NCBI GenBank assembly: GCA_017459925.1
Contig: JAFUCC010000008.1
Location: 1-64,000, forward strand
DNA length: 64,000 nt
Direction of reading: 5' to 3'
Origin: Eggerthellaceae bacterium
Lineage (GTDB): Bacteria > Actinomycetota > Coriobacteriia > Coriobacteriales > Eggerthellaceae
This document shows, piece after piece, positions 21,485-46,981 of this stretch. Both the position numbers and the translations under genes were made by a program. Position 1 is the first letter of the stretch. Each line of letters opens with the position of its first letter. A model generated the notes under the pieces. That model had not been told where the DNA came from. It worked only from the letters and a program-made list of their open reading frames with translations, and did no database searches.

Positions 21485-22348
21485 CTACCTATCGGCCAGC
21501 AGGTCGAACAGCTCCCACGCATCCTCGATGACACCATCCTCTTTATGCTGTTTGACCAGGGCTTTTAGTTTGTCGGCCGTTTCCTTGCGGATTGCGCCAC
21601 GTCCGAAAACGGACGCTATCGACACGTATTCCCCATCATCATCCGGGTAGCTTTCGAGCGCCTTCGCCACCATGGCGTGCACGGCCATGCCGACGTTCTT
21701 GATGTCCTCGAACTTCTGCACGCGCTGGATGGCCTCGACCGTCTCGTCGAACTGCTCTACGGGGCAGGCGCCAACCCAGTCGGATGCCGGCGTCGACTTC
21801 ACGTACTCTTCCAAATCCGCGAGCTGATGCGGCAGGAACGTGAACGTCACGTTCTTCCAATTGAAATCGACCTTCGGAATCGGCATGGCCTGCGCCTCTC
21901 GGTAAGCCTTCTCGAAAAACTCGTCTCCCAATGCCGTCTCGAGCATGTCGTCGACGTCCGTGACGATTGCCGCTATCTTCCTAAGCGTGTCCTCGTCGTC
22001 GACTCCCTCGATGGCGTTGTGGGCGAGCTGCTTGGCGGCTATGGCGCTGCGTGACAGCTTCGATCGGTCGAGCAGGGTGTAGACGTGCTCCAAACCCGCT
22101 TCACGGGCGGCACGCGTCCTGTGGTGGCCGCTGACGATTTCGACGCCCCTGTCGGTTTCGACGCAATAAGGCAGCTGCTCGAGCGTACCGCGCTTCCCGA
22201 TGTTCGCTACGAGTTGGGCGAACTTGGCGTCATCCATCACCCTGGCGTTGAGGTCTTGCTCCCTCAGCATCGAGAGCGGCACTTGAGCGAGGCATATTCC
22301 GTCTTCGAGCTCTGCGACTATGCGGACTTGTTCCTGGCTTTCAGCCAT
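21485..22348 (-). CDS. ParB/Srx-like domain protein
   Basis: 287 aa. An N-terminal ParB-like domain shows VPLSMLREQDLNARVMD, LVANIGKRGTLEQLP and VSGHHRTRAAREAGLEHV (the GxxR box, about residues 74-82). The rest is helical without an obvious second enzyme. Stand-alone ParB-domain proteins sit next to terminase or DNA methyltransferase genes in many phages, acting as nucleases or DNA-modification partners. It overlaps the upstream methyltransferase-like gene by 31 bases. Confidence 0.8.
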   Translation of the reverse strand: MAESQEQVRIVAELEDGICLAQVPLSMLREQDLNARVMDDAKFAQLVANIGKRGTLEQLPYCVETDRGVEIVSGHHRTRAAREAGLEHVYTLLDRSKLSRSAIAAKQLAHNAIEGVDDEDTLRKIAAIVTDVDDMLETALGDEFFEKAYREAQAMPIPKVDFNWKNVTFTFLPHQLADLEEYVKSTPASDWVGACPVEQFDETVEAIQRVQKFEDIKNVGMAVHAMVAKALESYPDDDGEYVSIASVFGRGAIRKETADKLKALVKQHKEDGVIEDAWELFDLLADR

Positions 22349-23718
22349 TTCTCCTCCTTGTCGACGAACTCATGCAGGCATTGAGCGTAGGTCTTGTCCT
22401 GCATGGCGCACTCATATGACAGCTTCCAGCCCATGCGGCCGTCTTCCTCTTTCGCGGTCAGCTTCATCAGGCCGCGCATTTCCTTCGATTCGGGGTACTT
22501 CGTAATCATCGCCGTGCGGACGACTCGGATCGCGGACAGCTTCAGGTCGTCGAACTCCATGCGGATTGAGCGTTTCTGGCATGCGACGGCGTAGAGCAGC
22601 CTGTTGATGCGACAGCTCGCTCTCGTGCACATGCCGAAACCGATGTAGGCGGCTTCCTGGCCCTTGCCCAGATCGGTTGCGATTCGGTTATATCCGAATA
22701 TCCCGGCGAGGTAGCCGTCGATGACAAGCCCGTAGCCCGAACCAGCTTGGGATGGCGTGAAGTTGTGGGTCAGCAGCTTTCGGTAGTACCTGACGTTCTC
22801 CGGAGACACCTTGACGACTTCGATCGACGAGGCCTTCGTTACGGCGTGGCCGTAGGGCATGAGGGGGTATTTTGAAGCCTCCATGCGCTGCGCGTCCGTA
22901 CGTGAGCACTCGCGGCCCAACAGCTCCTCGACTTCGCCCGGACGGTTCGACACGAGGTACATGTTGATACCAGCCCTGCCGCCATGGCGCCCGTAGGACG
23001 GTTCTCCGACGCATTTCCCGGCTTCCACTTCCTCGTACATGAGGAACAGGCATTTCGCGTCTCTCGTGGCGTCTAAGAGCTTCTGATAGCCTGCTGGCGG
23101 CTCGAACGTGCCGTAACTCGGCTCGTTCCACACGACGCTGTCGCTAATCGCCTTGTAGAACCTCTCGTAGCCACCGCTGTACGTCGGACACATGCACAGA
23201 ACGATTGCATGCGGGTCGTCCTTGACACGCTCGATGTGGTCGAACATGTCCATGTCGAAGTACCGCAGGCTCGGAATGCGCTCCCTGAGCGAGTCCATTT
23301 CGGCTCTGATCGAGGCGGCTATCTCGTCGTATCTCTCGTCGAAATCGCGCAGCATCTCGCGCCCGTAGACGCTTCCAGCCGAGTTGACAAGCTCCCTGCG
23401 CTTTATCTCGCACATGACCTCTATCGCGCTCTCAGGCGCCTCTCCGGTTTCCCTGTACGCGATTCCCATGTCGTCGATGCTACGGCCTTCGACGTATCGG
23501 CCGAGAACCCCCGAGAATATCGTGATATCGGATGCCTCGAGGTCGGTGTAGCCGGCATCCGCTGCCATGCAGGACATTGCGAGCTGGCCGCTGCAGGGCT
23601 CGACGGCCTTCGTGTAACCGGCTTTCTTGGCTGCTTCGAGCAATGAGGCGACGAACGCCTTGTCATCGGGTTTGAGTGCGCCTATGAACAGCGCCCCAGG
23701 ACTCTGAGCAAACGCCAC
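22318..23718 (-). CDS. DNA methyltransferase-like / GNAT-like fusion, putative antirestriction base-modification enzyme
   Basis: 466 aa from the GTG at 23718, which has AAGGAG 6 bases upstream; the longer reading from 23853 would translate through the tRNA-like RNA. The N-terminal half has a Rossmann methyltransferase motif I (EPCSGQ, about 40-45), LEASDITIFSG and a degenerate motif IV-like CMCPTYSGGYE (about 176-186). The C-terminal half (about 300-430) resembles GNAT acyltransferases such as Mu Mom: GYGLVIDGYLAGIFGYNRI, YIGFGMCTRASCRINRLL. The N-terminal type is annotated in other phages as antirestriction adenine methyltransferase. Substrate unknown; modification of phage DNA is inferred. 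Confidence 0.7.
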   Translation of the reverse strand: MAFAQSPGALFIGALKPDDKAFVASLLEAAKKAGYTKAVEPCSGQLAMSCMAADAGYTDLEASDITIFSGVLGRYVEGRSIDDMGIAYRETGEAPESAIEVMCEIKRRELVNSAGSVYGREMLRDFDERYDEIAASIRAEMDSLRERIPSLRYFDMDMFDHIERVKDDPHAIVLCMCPTYSGGYERFYKAISDSVVWNEPSYGTFEPPAGYQKLLDATRDAKCLFLMYEEVEAGKCVGEPSYGRHGGRAGINMYLVSNRPGEVEELLGRECSRTDAQRMEASKYPLMPYGHAVTKASSIEVVKVSPENVRYYRKLLTHNFTPSQAGSGYGLVIDGYLAGIFGYNRIATDLGKGQEAAYIGFGMCTRASCRINRLLYAVACQKRSIRMEFDDLKLSAIRVVRTAMITKYPESKEMRGLMKLTAKEEDGRMGWKLSYECAMQDKTYAQCLHEFVDKEEKWLKARNKSA

Positions 23719-23740
23719 AAGCGACTCCTTCTGAGCTAGA

Positions 23741-23816
23741 TGGTCCGCAGAGCCTGGACTTTCACCAAGCGGCCTCACCGCCCCGTGCGGTGCGCTCCAT
23801 CCTGAGCTATCCGCGG
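23741..23816 (-). tRNA. tRNA-Pro(CGG)-like RNA, atypical
   Basis: 76 bases fold as a cloverleaf: acceptor CCGCGGA/TCTGCGG, then T8 A9, D-arm GCTC/GAGC, anticodon arm CACCG/CGGTG with a 7-base loop, T-arm GCTTGG/CCAGGC, then A73 and encoded CCA. The anticodon would be CGG. C1-G72, A73, G35 and G36, the known bacterial tRNA-Pro identity elements, are all present. Abnormal points: A instead of T at position 33, T-loop TGAAAGT, a 6-base loop in the D-arm and a 13-bp acceptor/T stack. It may be a decayed tRNA or a tRNA mimic. Confidence 0.5.
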
Positions 23817-23851
23817 ATATGAGCAGGCAGCACATCGGCTGCGCTGGAACC

Positions 23852-23871
23852 ATTATCGGACCGGTGTCACA
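23852..23871 (-). promoter_or_regulatory. Candidate phage promoter g (tRNA-like RNA and modification gene)
   Basis: TTTTGTGAC, 8 bases, GATAAT on the minus strand, 3 bases after the stop of the metK-like gene. Transcription would start near 23845 and pass through the tRNA-like RNA into the methyltransferase-like gene. Confidence 0.6.
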
Positions 23872-23874
23872 AAA

Positions 23875-24663
23875 TCACACCAAGCCCCATTCGGCGAACC
23901 TCTCGAATCCGCCGTGCTCGACGATGTATTCCCTGGCTATTTCGACAATCTCGGAATACGGCTTGCCGTCAATCTCCTCGTCGCCGATGGCGCAGCACAG
24001 CTCGACTGGCTCGCCAGTCTCCTGAGCCTTGAGCCAAGCGTAGATGTTCACTGATACGTCGGCCTTGCTCAGGTCCTTGCCATGGAGTCCGCCGCCAGTC
24101 ACGCTGTCTGCCATGTCTGAGCCGAGCTTTCGGTTCGTGGCGCCGGCGTCGACATCCGATCCGCCCGTCCAATGGCCGAGAGGGTTCACTATCGCCGTCG
24201 GGTACTTCGCACGCAAGGCGTCCTCATCGGCGTTGGATTGGCAGATGACCACATGGTTTCGCGGCATGTCAATGATGTACTTGCCGTCGTGCGGGTACTC
24301 TGCGTAGATATCCCTCGCCAGATGGGACAGCTGCGATTGCTCCTGGGTAACCGGCATTCCCTTGAAGATGCCGTTGTCGCCGCAACGGATCGCGTCGGCC
24401 TGGTTGCCTGCGAGGTGGACGTCCTGCGGCACTTCGGAATAGTTGACCATCAAGTCACCGGCGATGCGGTGAACAGCCCTTCCGACGTCGCCTCTGTCAA
24501 GCAGCACGGAAGTCTCGGCGATGATATGGCAAACGCCATGTCCCAAAAGCACCTCGACGGCGATTTTAGGTGTGGATGATTGCCTGTATGCCAAATCGAC
24601 CAATGCGCCTGCCACACGGTCTGCCAGCTTGTCAGGATGCGATGGATTGACCTTCTCGAACAC
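23875..24663 (-). CDS. metK: S-adenosylmethionine synthetase homologue (phage MetK)
   Basis: 262 aa, much shorter than the usual 380-400, GTG start with GGAGGAGAG upstream. Family motifs are kept: HPDKLADRVAGALVD (residues 9-23), CGDNGIFKGMP (P-loop-like GDQG region), and GGSDVDAGATNRKLGSDMADS...GGGLHGKDLSKAD, matching the GG.GDAG.TGRK and G.GAFSGKDP.KVD boxes. It would make SAM from methionine and ATP, supplying the methyltransferase-like enzyme encoded next. Whether the shortened enzyme is active is untested. Confidence 0.85.
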   Translation of the reverse strand: MFEKVNPSHPDKLADRVAGALVDLAYRQSSTPKIAVEVLLGHGVCHIIAETSVLLDRGDVGRAVHRIAGDLMVNYSEVPQDVHLAGNQADAIRCGDNGIFKGMPVTQEQSQLSHLARDIYAEYPHDGKYIIDMPRNHVVICQSNADEDALRAKYPTAIVNPLGHWTGGSDVDAGATNRKLGSDMADSVTGGGLHGKDLSKADVSVNIYAWLKAQETGEPVELCCAIGDEEIDGKPYSEIVEIAREYIVEHGGFERFAEWGLV

Positions 24664-44841: not shown

Positions 44842-45666
44842 ATGGGCCTATTCGACAAGCTATCCGAAGTCGCCAACAAAGCCGCCGATTATGCGAACAT
44901 GGACGCATCCGAGGCCGCTGGGAAAGCGAAGAATCAGCTCAGCCAGTATTCAGAGGCTAAATCCATCGCCAAGCAGGAGAAGGCCGAAGCCAAGAAAGCA
45001 CTCAAGGAAAAGCAGCGCAACGAGACGTCTGCGATTTTCAAGCTCGCTTCGCCGTCACCTGCCACTTCTGGCACGTTCGGCGTTGCGACAATATGGAAGC
45101 AGCAAAACGGGCTCGTCTACTTCAGCGACAATGTCGACACGCTCTACGAGGTCGCCGGCTTTGAATGGGATGGACCGTCATACGAGGCAGTCATCACGAC
45201 CGAAGCCGTAACCGAAGAGCAGGGTAAGCAGAAACGCACCGGTCGAGTCACCGGCGCCGTCGTCGGGACCATCCTGGCTCCCGGCATCGGTACAGCCATC
45301 GGAGCCGCATACGGCACTGGCAACAAGAAGCTTGACAAGAAGGGCAAGACGACGACCGTTCAGCAAACCTCCCAGGTCGAGAACGAGACGATTGCGACGC
45401 TGTACCTGAGCGATGCGTACGGCAACATAGTCCACGTCATCGCGAAAGACAAGGCCGAGAGACTGTCCGAGCTTGCCGCACTTGCACGCACCGCACAAGC
45501 CGCTCGGATCGCATTCAACCAGCAGGTTCAGCAGACGGCTCAAGTCCAGAAGGCTGACGCCGCCTCGCCTTACGACGAGCTGACAAAGCTGAAAGAGCTC
45601 ATGGACTCCGGCGTAATCACCGAGGACGACTTCAACGCCGCAAAAGCGAGAATCCTGGGGATATGA
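44842..45666 (+). CDS. SHOCT-domain lysogeny-module protein
   Basis: 274 aa. Residues 1-60 are Ala/Lys-rich helix; about 65-125 is a beta domain; 130-155 is a glycine-zipper-like hydrophobic segment (GAVVGTILAPGIGTAIGAAYG); the last 30 residues are a SHOCT motif (YDELTKLKELMDSGVITEDDFNAAKARIL). Lying between repressor and integrase on the + strand it should be expressed in the lysogen, so a superinfection-immunity or conversion role is plausible. Confidence 0.65.
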   Translation: MGLFDKLSEVANKAADYANMDASEAAGKAKNQLSQYSEAKSIAKQEKAEAKKALKEKQRNETSAIFKLASPSPATSGTFGVATIWKQQNGLVYFSDNVDTLYEVAGFEWDGPSYEAVITTEAVTEEQGKQKRTGRVTGAVVGTILAPGIGTAIGAAYGTGNKKLDKKGKTTTVQQTSQVENETIATLYLSDAYGNIVHVIAKDKAERLSELAALARTAQAARIAFNQQVQQTAQVQKADAASPYDELTKLKELMDSGVITEDDFNAAKARILGI

Positions 45667-46820
45667 TGCGCTCCGCCAAGGGCTCGATAACCAAGCTCGG
45701 CTACAACCACTACCGTATCCGGGTCGAGGGTTTCGCCGACCCTGAAACAGGGAAACGGCGCCAGCTCTCGAAGACGATACGCGGAACGCGCAAGCAGGCT
45801 GAGGACGAGAAGCTGAAACTGCTCATCGAAGCAGGCGACGAAGTCGTCGACTCCGACATGCCCTTCGGCCAATACGTCTCGAGCATGTACTTGCCGGACA
45901 AAGAGGCCCTGGTTGCCTCCGGCGGGAAATTCAAGCGCAAGACGCTCACCAACTACAAGTCGCGCCTGCGGAACCATATCCTGCCGACGTTCGAGAACGT
46001 GCCGCTCAAGAACATCACCATCCTCATGATTCGCAAGTGGCTCGCGACCATACCGAGCAAGGCAACCGCGAAAGCCTGCTTCGCCGTGCTCAGCTCGGTG
46101 CTATCGCATGCGGTCGAAAACTTGAAGCTCCGAGACAACCCGTGCCTGAAGATGAAACCGCCAGAAGTCGACGAATACGAGCCCGAAATCCTCGATCTCG
46201 AAGACATCGAGGTGTACCTTTACTTCTTCCGCGAGACGACGGTCGAGGCCGCTGTGCTGCTCGCCGTAGGCGGCGGGTTCAGGCGCGGCGAGATATGCGG
46301 ACTCGACGTCGCCGACATCGACTTCGAGACGGGCGCTACGCTGATTGACGACACTTACATAACCGATGGCGGCGAGGCGTACACCGAAACCACTAAGACG
46401 CGCAAGAAGCACGTCGTCTACCTCCCGATGTCGATAACCGATAGGCTTGCCGAGATTCTTCCCAAGCACGGTCCTGTCCTTCCTGGCAACAGCAACGGGC
46501 GCATGTACCCCGACGCCGTCACCAAGGCGTACGAGCGCATCCAAAAGCAGATGCCGGCAGAAGTGCCGCGGATTCCGCTGAAGAACCTACGCCACTCCTC
46601 GCACACCCTGGCTTACGAAGTCGGCGGCGACATGGCTGGAATCAAGGACAGGGGCGGGTGGTCGAACATGTCGACGCCGCAGCGGTACTATCTGAGGCCG
46701 CGAGGCGACAGGGACAAAGCTATCGCCGAAGCCATGGACGCCGCCCTGAAACCGCGTCGATCGAGCGGCCGCAGAACCATAACGTTCGATGCTCGAGCAC
46801 GATCCGCAGAGGCGTTCTAA
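45663..46820 (+). CDS. int: Tyrosine integrase
   Basis: 385 aa. N-terminal arm-binding domain (ITKLGYNHYRIRVEGFADPETGKRRQLSKTIRGTRKQAE), core-binding SAM-like domain (about 90-170), catalytic domain with GGGFRRGEICGL (Arg I), KTRKKHVVYLP (Lys), LKNLRHSSHTL (Arg II) and STPQRYYL (Tyr). Ends 85 bases from the tRNA-Thr gene, the presumed attachment site. Confidence 0.95.
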   Translation: MMRSAKGSITKLGYNHYRIRVEGFADPETGKRRQLSKTIRGTRKQAEDEKLKLLIEAGDEVVDSDMPFGQYVSSMYLPDKEALVASGGKFKRKTLTNYKSRLRNHILPTFENVPLKNITILMIRKWLATIPSKATAKACFAVLSSVLSHAVENLKLRDNPCLKMKPPEVDEYEPEILDLEDIEVYLYFFRETTVEAAVLLAVGGGFRRGEICGLDVADIDFETGATLIDDTYITDGGEAYTETTKTRKKHVVYLPMSITDRLAEILPKHGPVLPGNSNGRMYPDAVTKAYERIQKQMPAEVPRIPLKNLRHSSHTLAYEVGGDMAGIKDRGGWSNMSTPQRYYLRPRGDRDKAIAEAMDAALKPRRSSGRRTITFDARARSAEAF

Positions 46821-46905: not shown

Positions 46906-46981
46906 TGGAGCCAACGAGCGGACTCGAACCGCTGACCTGCTCATTACGAGTGAGCTGCTCTACCAGCTGAGCCACGTTGGC
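46906..46981 (-). tRNA. tRNA-Thr(CGT)
   Basis: Full cloverleaf: GCCAACG/CGTTGGC acceptor, D-arm, anticodon loop CTCGTAA, T-arm GCGGTTCGAGTCCGC, encoded CCA. Probable integration site of the prophage, whose integrase lies against its 3' end. Confidence 0.95.

Follow-up and report, generated by a model that had tools for sequence, protein, structure and literature searches.

Deviant tRNA-Gly genes of Staphylococcus aureus, the non-proteinogenic ones, are reserved for non-ribosomal use. Transferases of the GNAT fold that take their amino acid from an aminoacyl-tRNA are described among FemABX and MurMN (PMC12945691, PMC4307249), and the natural-product transferases VlmA, DhpH, DhpK, PacB and Orf11, which also have the GNAT fold, use aminoacyl-tRNA donors to modify small molecules (PMC12945691). 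An acyl-CoA donor is described for the phage enzyme Mom in a survey of jumbo phages (PMC7824862). CmoA, CmoX and CmoY are responsible for a 5-carboxymethylcytosine-glycine hypermodification of phage DNA, and the survey reported with them also counted ParBc sequences (PMC12783734).

The locus analyzed here lies in a 64,000-nt stretch of DNA from an Eggerthellaceae bacterium (hereafter the window). A tRNA-like RNA precedes a gene whose product has a Dam-like and a GNAT domain (Dam-GNAT). The pair would belong to a family of two-part phage cassettes, each composed of a dedicated tRNA and a Dam-like/GNAT fusion enzyme, with the window element as the RNA half.

The tRNA-like RNA and its surroundings

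This region of the window is a prophage, whose genes include ParB-like, terminase, portal, head, and capsid genes. A tyrosine recombinase gene (45663-46820, +) adjoins tRNA-Thr (46906-46981, −), and this site is a likely integration end of the prophage. The features around the tRNA-like RNA are listed in Table 1.

Table 1. Features at the tRNA-like RNA and the Dam-GNAT gene, in positions of the window
Feature	Position	Strand	Basis or remark
tRNA-like RNA, 76 nt with encoded CCA	23741..23816	−	sequence reading; covariance model R1 match
Ribosome-binding site AAGGAG for the downstream gene	23725..23730	−	sequence reading
Dam-like + GNAT gene, 466 aa, GTG start	22318..23718	−	PF22555, PF22559, phrog_7858; structure model
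ParB-like gene, constant downstream neighbour in the family	21485..22348	−	profile matches; ORF survey of homologue loci
SAM-synthetase-like gene, directly upstream, metK N-terminal part only	23875..24663	−	occasional neighbour only

Read on the minus strand from 23816 to 23741, the RNA has an acceptor stem CCGCGGA/TCTGCGG with 7/7 pairs (one G-U), C1-G72 and A73, and fully paired D (4/4), anticodon (5/5), and T (6/6) stems. The D loop is AGGATG, the T loop TGAAAGT, and the anticodon loop CACGGGG, which contains A33 and, if a standard 7-base loop is assumed, the anticodon CGG. U33 and the canonical GTTCRANNC T arm, both kept in 35/35 distinct tRNAs of the window's genome, are absent. The predicted minimum-energy fold is the cloverleaf plus one additional pair, C32-G38. 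The folding energy is unexceptional (16 of 200 shuffles were equally stable), and the argument from it was dropped as support because z was only −1.59.

When both strands of the window (64 kb) were scanned for cloverleafs by structure only, the RNA scored 52 and ranked 4th: three ordinary tRNAs scored higher, the two tRNA-Ser scored lower, and the best non-tRNA reached 47.5. Covariance model R1, built from 32 related elements with the window excluded, matched exactly 23741-23816 over the full length (52 bits, E 1.2e-10). ARAGORN, suggested as a check by the first-pass annotation, called five other tRNAs in the window and missed this element, and Rfam RF00005 listed four other tRNAs, with the element absent even at E 10. 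The 76-base cloverleaf with encoded CCA, A33, and a non-standard T loop that the first-pass annotation had described is confirmed by the paired stems and the R1 match: it is real, and not a lone relic.

That annotation had further recognized the ProRS identity set. C1-G72, A73, and G35-G36 are indeed present and fit ProRS if the loop is taken as 7 bases, and a second Pro-like element is known among the relatives (L219, anticodon TGG). The Pro identity itself is uncertain, because the D loop resembles the A20 type of Arg elements and CACGGGG could instead contain the anticodon ACG, if base 33 is absent and one G has been added, a reading that would suit Arg. The relatives are mostly of Lys, Arg, or Gly type. 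Judged from its sequence, the window RNA may be of Pro or of Arg type.

The GTG start of the Dam-GNAT gene at 23718 is located 22 nt 3' of the CCA and is preceded by AAGGAG (23730-23725). In the 5' direction, the reading frame continues without a stop across the RNA as far as an ATG at 23853; homologue alignments nevertheless begin at GTG 23718. The protein scored 163 bits against PF22555 (DAM-like-phage1) and 98.9 bits against PF22559 (GNAT-phage-like), each with a curated cut-off of 27. Joint transcription of RNA and gene from an upstream site, "promoter g", had been proposed and found no support, as a consensus scan of 23600-24100 returned no sigma-70-like promoter sites; a terminator-like site (23896-23878) lies just upstream of the RNA. 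No relative of the window gene was detected in 137 other genomes of the family or in 395 others drawn from the phylum.

Linkage of the RNA to Dam-GNAT genes

A tblastn search identified 13 phage records with a relative of the window gene. In Mycobacterium phages Jeon and Megabear, whose relatives are only about 20% identical, an annotated tRNA-Gly overlaps the annotated start of the Dam-GNAT gene. The gene is preceded by a tRNA-Lys in Faecalibacterium phage FP_Brigit and by a "tRNA-???" in Microbacterium phage ValentiniPuff (both ARAGORN calls), and by a Gly-like cloverleaf in Gordonia phage Clawz. The IMG/VR contig L006 has a tRNA-Arg 5' of its two-domain gene; a second Dam-like paralogue on this contig (4001-5164, +) lacks both a GNAT domain and a tRNA-like RNA but is accompanied by a ParB-like gene of its own. 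Among viral and genome contigs and the earlier loci, 251 full-length homologue ORFs were collected, some contigs occurring in duplicate, and were grouped at 80% identity into 89 clusters, 84 of which had the at least 150 nt of upstream DNA needed for use; the other five had too little. The named hosts include Streptomyces, Anaerovibrio, and Clostridiales, and the remaining records come from metagenome bins, those of Firmicutes among them. The arrangement of RNA and gene recurs in Firmicutes and Actinobacteria, in their phages as well as their prophages. A ParB-like ORF follows 226 of the 248 homologues with more than 600 nt of downstream DNA, and 13 homologue loci out of 251, counting the window, have a SAM-synthetase-related ORF upstream. 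In L057 and L081, an in-frame stop lies within the matched stretch of the Dam-GNAT gene, possibly an early natural gene end, a broken copy, or a sequencing error.

In a structure-only scan, a cloverleaf scoring at least 44 was present within 450 nt upstream of the gene in 47/84 clusters, compared with 10/438 and 10/438 control windows elsewhere in the same loci on the two strands and with 5/84 on the reverse strand of the same upstream regions. When ARAGORN calls were admitted beside the scan, an element was found in 54/84 clusters. Covariance model R1 or R2 gave a match at E<0.01 in 63 of the 84 representative loci, which do not include the window, and all R1 and R2 rows (65 and 50, E up to 1) were on the same strand as the gene. 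Since both models recognize ordinary tRNAs too, the strand bias and the isotype pattern weigh as much as the number of matches.

Among the scan matches, the median distance between RNA and gene was 65 nt, and 35/47 were within 120 nt. The RNA lies hundreds of bases to more than 1 kb upstream in L019, L020, L180, and L187, about 0.7-1.9 kb downstream in L080, L152, L153, and L167, and 15 kb away in L092. Such a flexible position fits a trans-acting RNA.

No element was detected at E<0.01 in 21 of the 84 representative loci. When the whole records of 20 of these loci and of L136 were searched, clear Gly-type RNAs were obtained in 3/21 (L070, L092, and L167), together with an ambiguous match in L149 and ordinary-looking tRNAs in L106, L137, and L189, the last a bacterial genome; nothing was found in the DNA searched for the remaining loci. 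The linkage was also examined in reverse, from RNA to gene. An initial search of viral contigs with a D-arm pattern picked out at least five but was unproductive. A Lys-type D-arm pattern was matched by three contigs, and each of them has a Dam-GNAT gene (3/3). Of the Gly-array-type cloverleafs found by pattern, two occur with the gene, one lies on a stretch that ends 186 nt past the RNA, and one belongs to the L044 contig. A gapped Gly pattern hit at least 120 stretches, mostly by chance, and yielded seven cloverleafs, four of which are other tRNA kinds without the gene. Two further contigs from the Gly pattern search were rejected, as they were not cloverleafs.

Covariation of the stems

Compensatory changes in the stems, which the first-pass annotation had named as the thing to seek in related phages, were found. 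In 40 aligned Gly-type elements, 98.3% of cells were paired, and 18/21 pairs had changed on both sides; in 32 Lys/Arg/Pro-type elements, 93.9% of cells were paired, and 16/21 pairs had changed on both sides. These pairing percentages are somewhat inflated, because the scan that initially detected all of these elements gives credit for pairing. The covariation score was 0.860 for the Gly type (0.187 when shuffled and at most 0.133 when slid) and 0.589 for the Lys/Arg/Pro type (0.176 and at most 0.164, respectively). Two T-stem pairs of the latter set fail in 16/32 rows owing to a recurrent extra base in the T stem. The Gly alignment (A8) consisted of 32/41 G1-C72 and 8/14 C1-G72 elements, with odd-loop elements among the omissions, and the Lys/Arg/Pro alignment (A7) of 32/33 non-redundant elements, with the window left out. 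The structure of the RNA is under selection.

Isotypes, synthetase determinants, and decoding features

The 126 cloverleaf strings were filtered by acceptor sequence, which removed ordinary tRNAs, chance folds of high GC content, and one genuine element read in a shifted register (L090), 24 strings in all, and left 102 distinct elements. Their anticodons assign 61 to Gly, 27 to Lys, 12 to Arg, and 2 to Pro; L125, counted as Lys, is a mis-registered Gly element. In E. coli, the GlyRS determinants are U73, C35, C36, and the first acceptor base pairs, the LysRS determinant is A73, and the ArgRS determinants are A20 and C35. A Gly anticodon goes with U73 in 60/61 elements, the exception being L089 with the tail CGTG, and a Lys anticodon goes with A73 in 25/27 (exceptions L037 and L125). 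An A20-type D loop is present in 12/12 Arg elements, compared with 5/88 Lys and Gly elements. The sequences are related, and Fisher values for this agreement between isotype and determinants overstate its significance. U73 is not the usual Arg discriminator, and its presence in 11/12 Arg elements is a point against simple charging with Arg.

U33 is missing in 31 of the 94 seven-base anticodon loops; in the other 8 elements, the loop has 6 or 8 bases or the register is wrong. The T arm GTTCRANNC is kept in 53/102 elements and lost in 49/102. Both U33 and the canonical T arm are kept in 34/102 elements, compared with all 35 of the host tRNAs; on this ground, these 34 elements may still translate. 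ARAGORN calls many of the relatives of the window RNA. The elements of ValentiniPuff, L067, and Streptomyces L191 are one anticodon-loop base short and keep the A20-type D loop.

Tandem arrays consisting only of Gly elements occur in L182, L185, L187, L044, L188, L034, L170, and L157, and several Oscillospiraceae prophages have two or three tandem RNAs, all with an NCC anticodon, T73, and CCA. The arrays of L182, L185, L187, L188, and L044 have differing wobble bases and non-standard T loops, for example in Clostridiales bacterium CCNA10.

On the protein tree, the isotype changes 4 times among 62 labelled clusters, compared with a minimum of 17 and a mean of 22 changes in 1000 shuffles; about a dozen of the clusters were labelled by hand from covariance-model matches, and L117 was relabelled from Gly+Lys to Gly on account of a mis-registered Gly element. 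The Lys clade contains one branch that has switched to Gly and another that has switched to Pro. T73 is found in the Gly branch together with, in most cases, the C1-G72 of the clade, as if the synthetase determinants had changed while a feature recognized by the enzyme stayed.

Folds and motifs of the enzyme

The AlphaFold2 model of the window protein (mean pLDDT 85) has two domains. The top fold match of the N-domain was E. coli Dam in complex with DNA (4rtp; Z 13.8, rmsd 3.2, 195 residues); RNA methyltransferases such as RlmJ also matched, at a lower Z of 10.9. The C-domain folded alone (pLDDT 88) matched GNAT proteins at tied Z values of 9.5-11.1; these matches are CoA enzymes and phage Mu Mom (8bv8; Z 10.2, 141 aligned residues, rmsd 3.3-3.4). 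No FemX-type enzyme was present in the fold-match lists, and one GNAT domain was modelled; the lists speak neither for nor against kinship with FemX.

The usual CoA loop motif of GNAT enzymes is [QR]xxGx[GA]. It was found in 0/251 homologues in a search, run without a positive control, of the 16-residue stretch at that place. Motif IV of Dam enzymes is (D/N/S)PP(Y/F). The window protein has MCPTY, and its relatives mostly have NPPTY or FPP(T/F). The window copy could be defective or impaired, given the altered motif IV and the lack of relatives in the genomes of the family and phylum.

Discussion

We consider it probable that the RNA is a dedicated non-translational tRNA, charged by host synthetases, from which the Dam-GNAT enzyme receives an amino acid that is probably transferred onto phage DNA. 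From the observed linkage, structure, isotype logic, and fold, we infer the charging, the transfer, and the DNA target. A host aminoacyl-tRNA synthetase would charge the tRNA with Gly, Lys, Arg, or Pro depending on the lineage, and loss of U33, deviation of the T loop, or the extra T-stem base would bar much of the RNA from translation. The GNAT domain, without the usual CoA loop motif, would then take the amino acid from the tRNA and attach it to a base, either directly or via another group on that base; the Dam-like domain would present this base, and phage DNA is the likeliest acceptor. Transfer from tRNA to a DNA base is proposed because the GNAT fold is one of aminoacyl-tRNA transferases and the Dam fold points to DNA. 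Several observations weigh against this account: a third of the elements keep both decoding features, 21 of the 84 loci gave no match at E<0.01, the fold matches of the C-domain are CoA enzymes and Mom, the window copy has an altered motif IV, and R1 and R2 recognize ordinary tRNAs as well. The broader notion of an aminoacyl-tRNA-dependent hypermodification of phage DNA, in which dedicated tRNAs and Dam-GNAT enzymes write Gly, Lys, Arg, or Pro and the RNA sets the chemistry of the mark, is one for and against which we judge the balance to be even. The amino acid written would switch through the anticodon and the discriminator base, as in the changes from Lys to Gly and from Lys to Pro within one protein clade.

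The constant pairing of enzyme and tRNA could also mean that the RNA is a substrate rather than a donor, i.e., that Dam-GNAT modifies the linked tRNA, or tRNAs generally, and that the pair acts on translation. The match of RNA adenine methyltransferases such as RlmJ to the N-domain agrees with this, but the Dam-DNA complex is the better match, isotype switches with matching identity bases favor a particular amino acid over a particular target base, and 6-base anticodon loops and the loss of U33 are unsuited to a translating tRNA; we regard a substrate role as unlikely. A decoy or replacement role appears more doubtful still. Lys and Arg isotypes are common targets of anticodon nucleases, deviant loops could resist cleavage, and the neighboring gene would probably be protective, so that the RNAs might counter anticodon nucleases or other tRNA-targeting defences from an anti-defence island beside a DNA-protection gene. 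Against this, the linkage involves a single gene family in which each protein lineage mostly has one isotype, arrays within one prophage are all Gly, and a PADLOC run found no defence family among the five proteins tested.

Simple decay had been offered by the first-pass annotation as the plainer reading of the window RNA. Phage tRNAs often decay, and ordinary or decaying ones might stand beside the gene by chance, through hitch-hiking or at integration or recombination sites; the third of the elements that are canonical at U33 and the T arm and the many ARAGORN calls are in keeping with this. However, the control windows, the strand bias, the covariation, the agreement of isotype and determinants, and the Gly-only arrays are against chance, as is the pattern search that leads from the RNA back to the gene, and we think this origin improbable, below even the decoy role. 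Decay of an ordinary phage tRNA was itself rejected on covariation, linkage controls, and determinant agreement: pairing is intact and covaries, the linkage recurs, and determinants are kept while decoding features are lost. Donation of an aminoacyl group to a GNAT-type enzyme outside translation, which the same annotation had entertained as an idea, is now better supported than decay, with charging and transfer as its presumed steps. The least probable explanation is a cis-acting leader, a tRNA-shaped RNA that controls expression of the gene or serves as an mRNA processing signal. The short distances in many loci, where the RNA is just 5' of the gene, speak for it; it was discarded because the position is flexible (far upstream, downstream, or 15 kb away in other loci), and a leader would have no need of CCA and synthetase determinants. 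A packaging signal was also rejected, since the annotations of Jeon, Megabear, and Clawz place no terminase gene closer than 3 kb to the Dam-GNAT gene.

At least one of these RNAs is missing from a published annotation. Table 1 of the ValentiniPuff report gives 0 tRNAs (PMC7302621), and this phage carries the element according to a covariance-model match. The annotation passage for Gordonia phage Soos likewise gives no tRNA (PMC11008160); Soos carries the Dam-GNAT gene, and its cluster mate Clawz has the element. Searches of the open-licence PMC literature, some of them narrow, returned no account of tRNA-dependent DNA modification or of linkage between a tRNA and Dam-GNAT.

If the donor reading is true, it would join non-ribosomal use of aminoacyl-tRNA with phage DNA hypermodification, fields that are so far separate in the literature searched, and would provide a natural enzyme that places genetically chosen amino acids on DNA. 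It would also account for a part of the phage tRNAs that are deviant or have been missed, and PF22555 and PF22559, phage domains of Pfam with names based on fold only, would gain a function that can be tested directly.

The proposed system resembles the non-proteinogenic tRNA-Gly of S. aureus in that a deviant tRNA-Gly is set aside from the ribosome. It resembles phage Mu Mom in having the GNAT fold in a DNA-modifying phage enzyme, although the match of the C-domain to Mom is tied with those to many other GNATs, and we know of no linked tRNA for Mom. With CmoA/CmoX/CmoY it would share the joining of an amino acid to phage DNA by way of a methyltransferase homologue; that system uses free glycine and ATP, not aminoacyl-tRNA, and CmoY is an asparagine-synthetase-like ligase, not a GNAT (PMC12783734). 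VlmA, DhpH, DhpK, PacB, and Orf11 have a FemX-like architecture without a DNA domain, and a dedicated linked tRNA is unmentioned in the section of PMC12945691 that treats them. In the parts of these sources that deal with them, none of FemABX, the natural-product GNATs, Mom, and CmoY is described as joining an amino acid derived from aminoacyl-tRNA to DNA. FemABX and MurMN are GNAT-fold transferases that use aminoacyl-tRNA, as is proposed for Dam-GNAT; FemX acts on precursors of the cell wall and contains a pair of GNAT domains (PMC12945691), whereas the phage enzyme has one GNAT domain fused to a Dam-like domain. Unlike FemABX, the phage system has a tRNA gene linked to the enzyme gene and comprises several isotypes.
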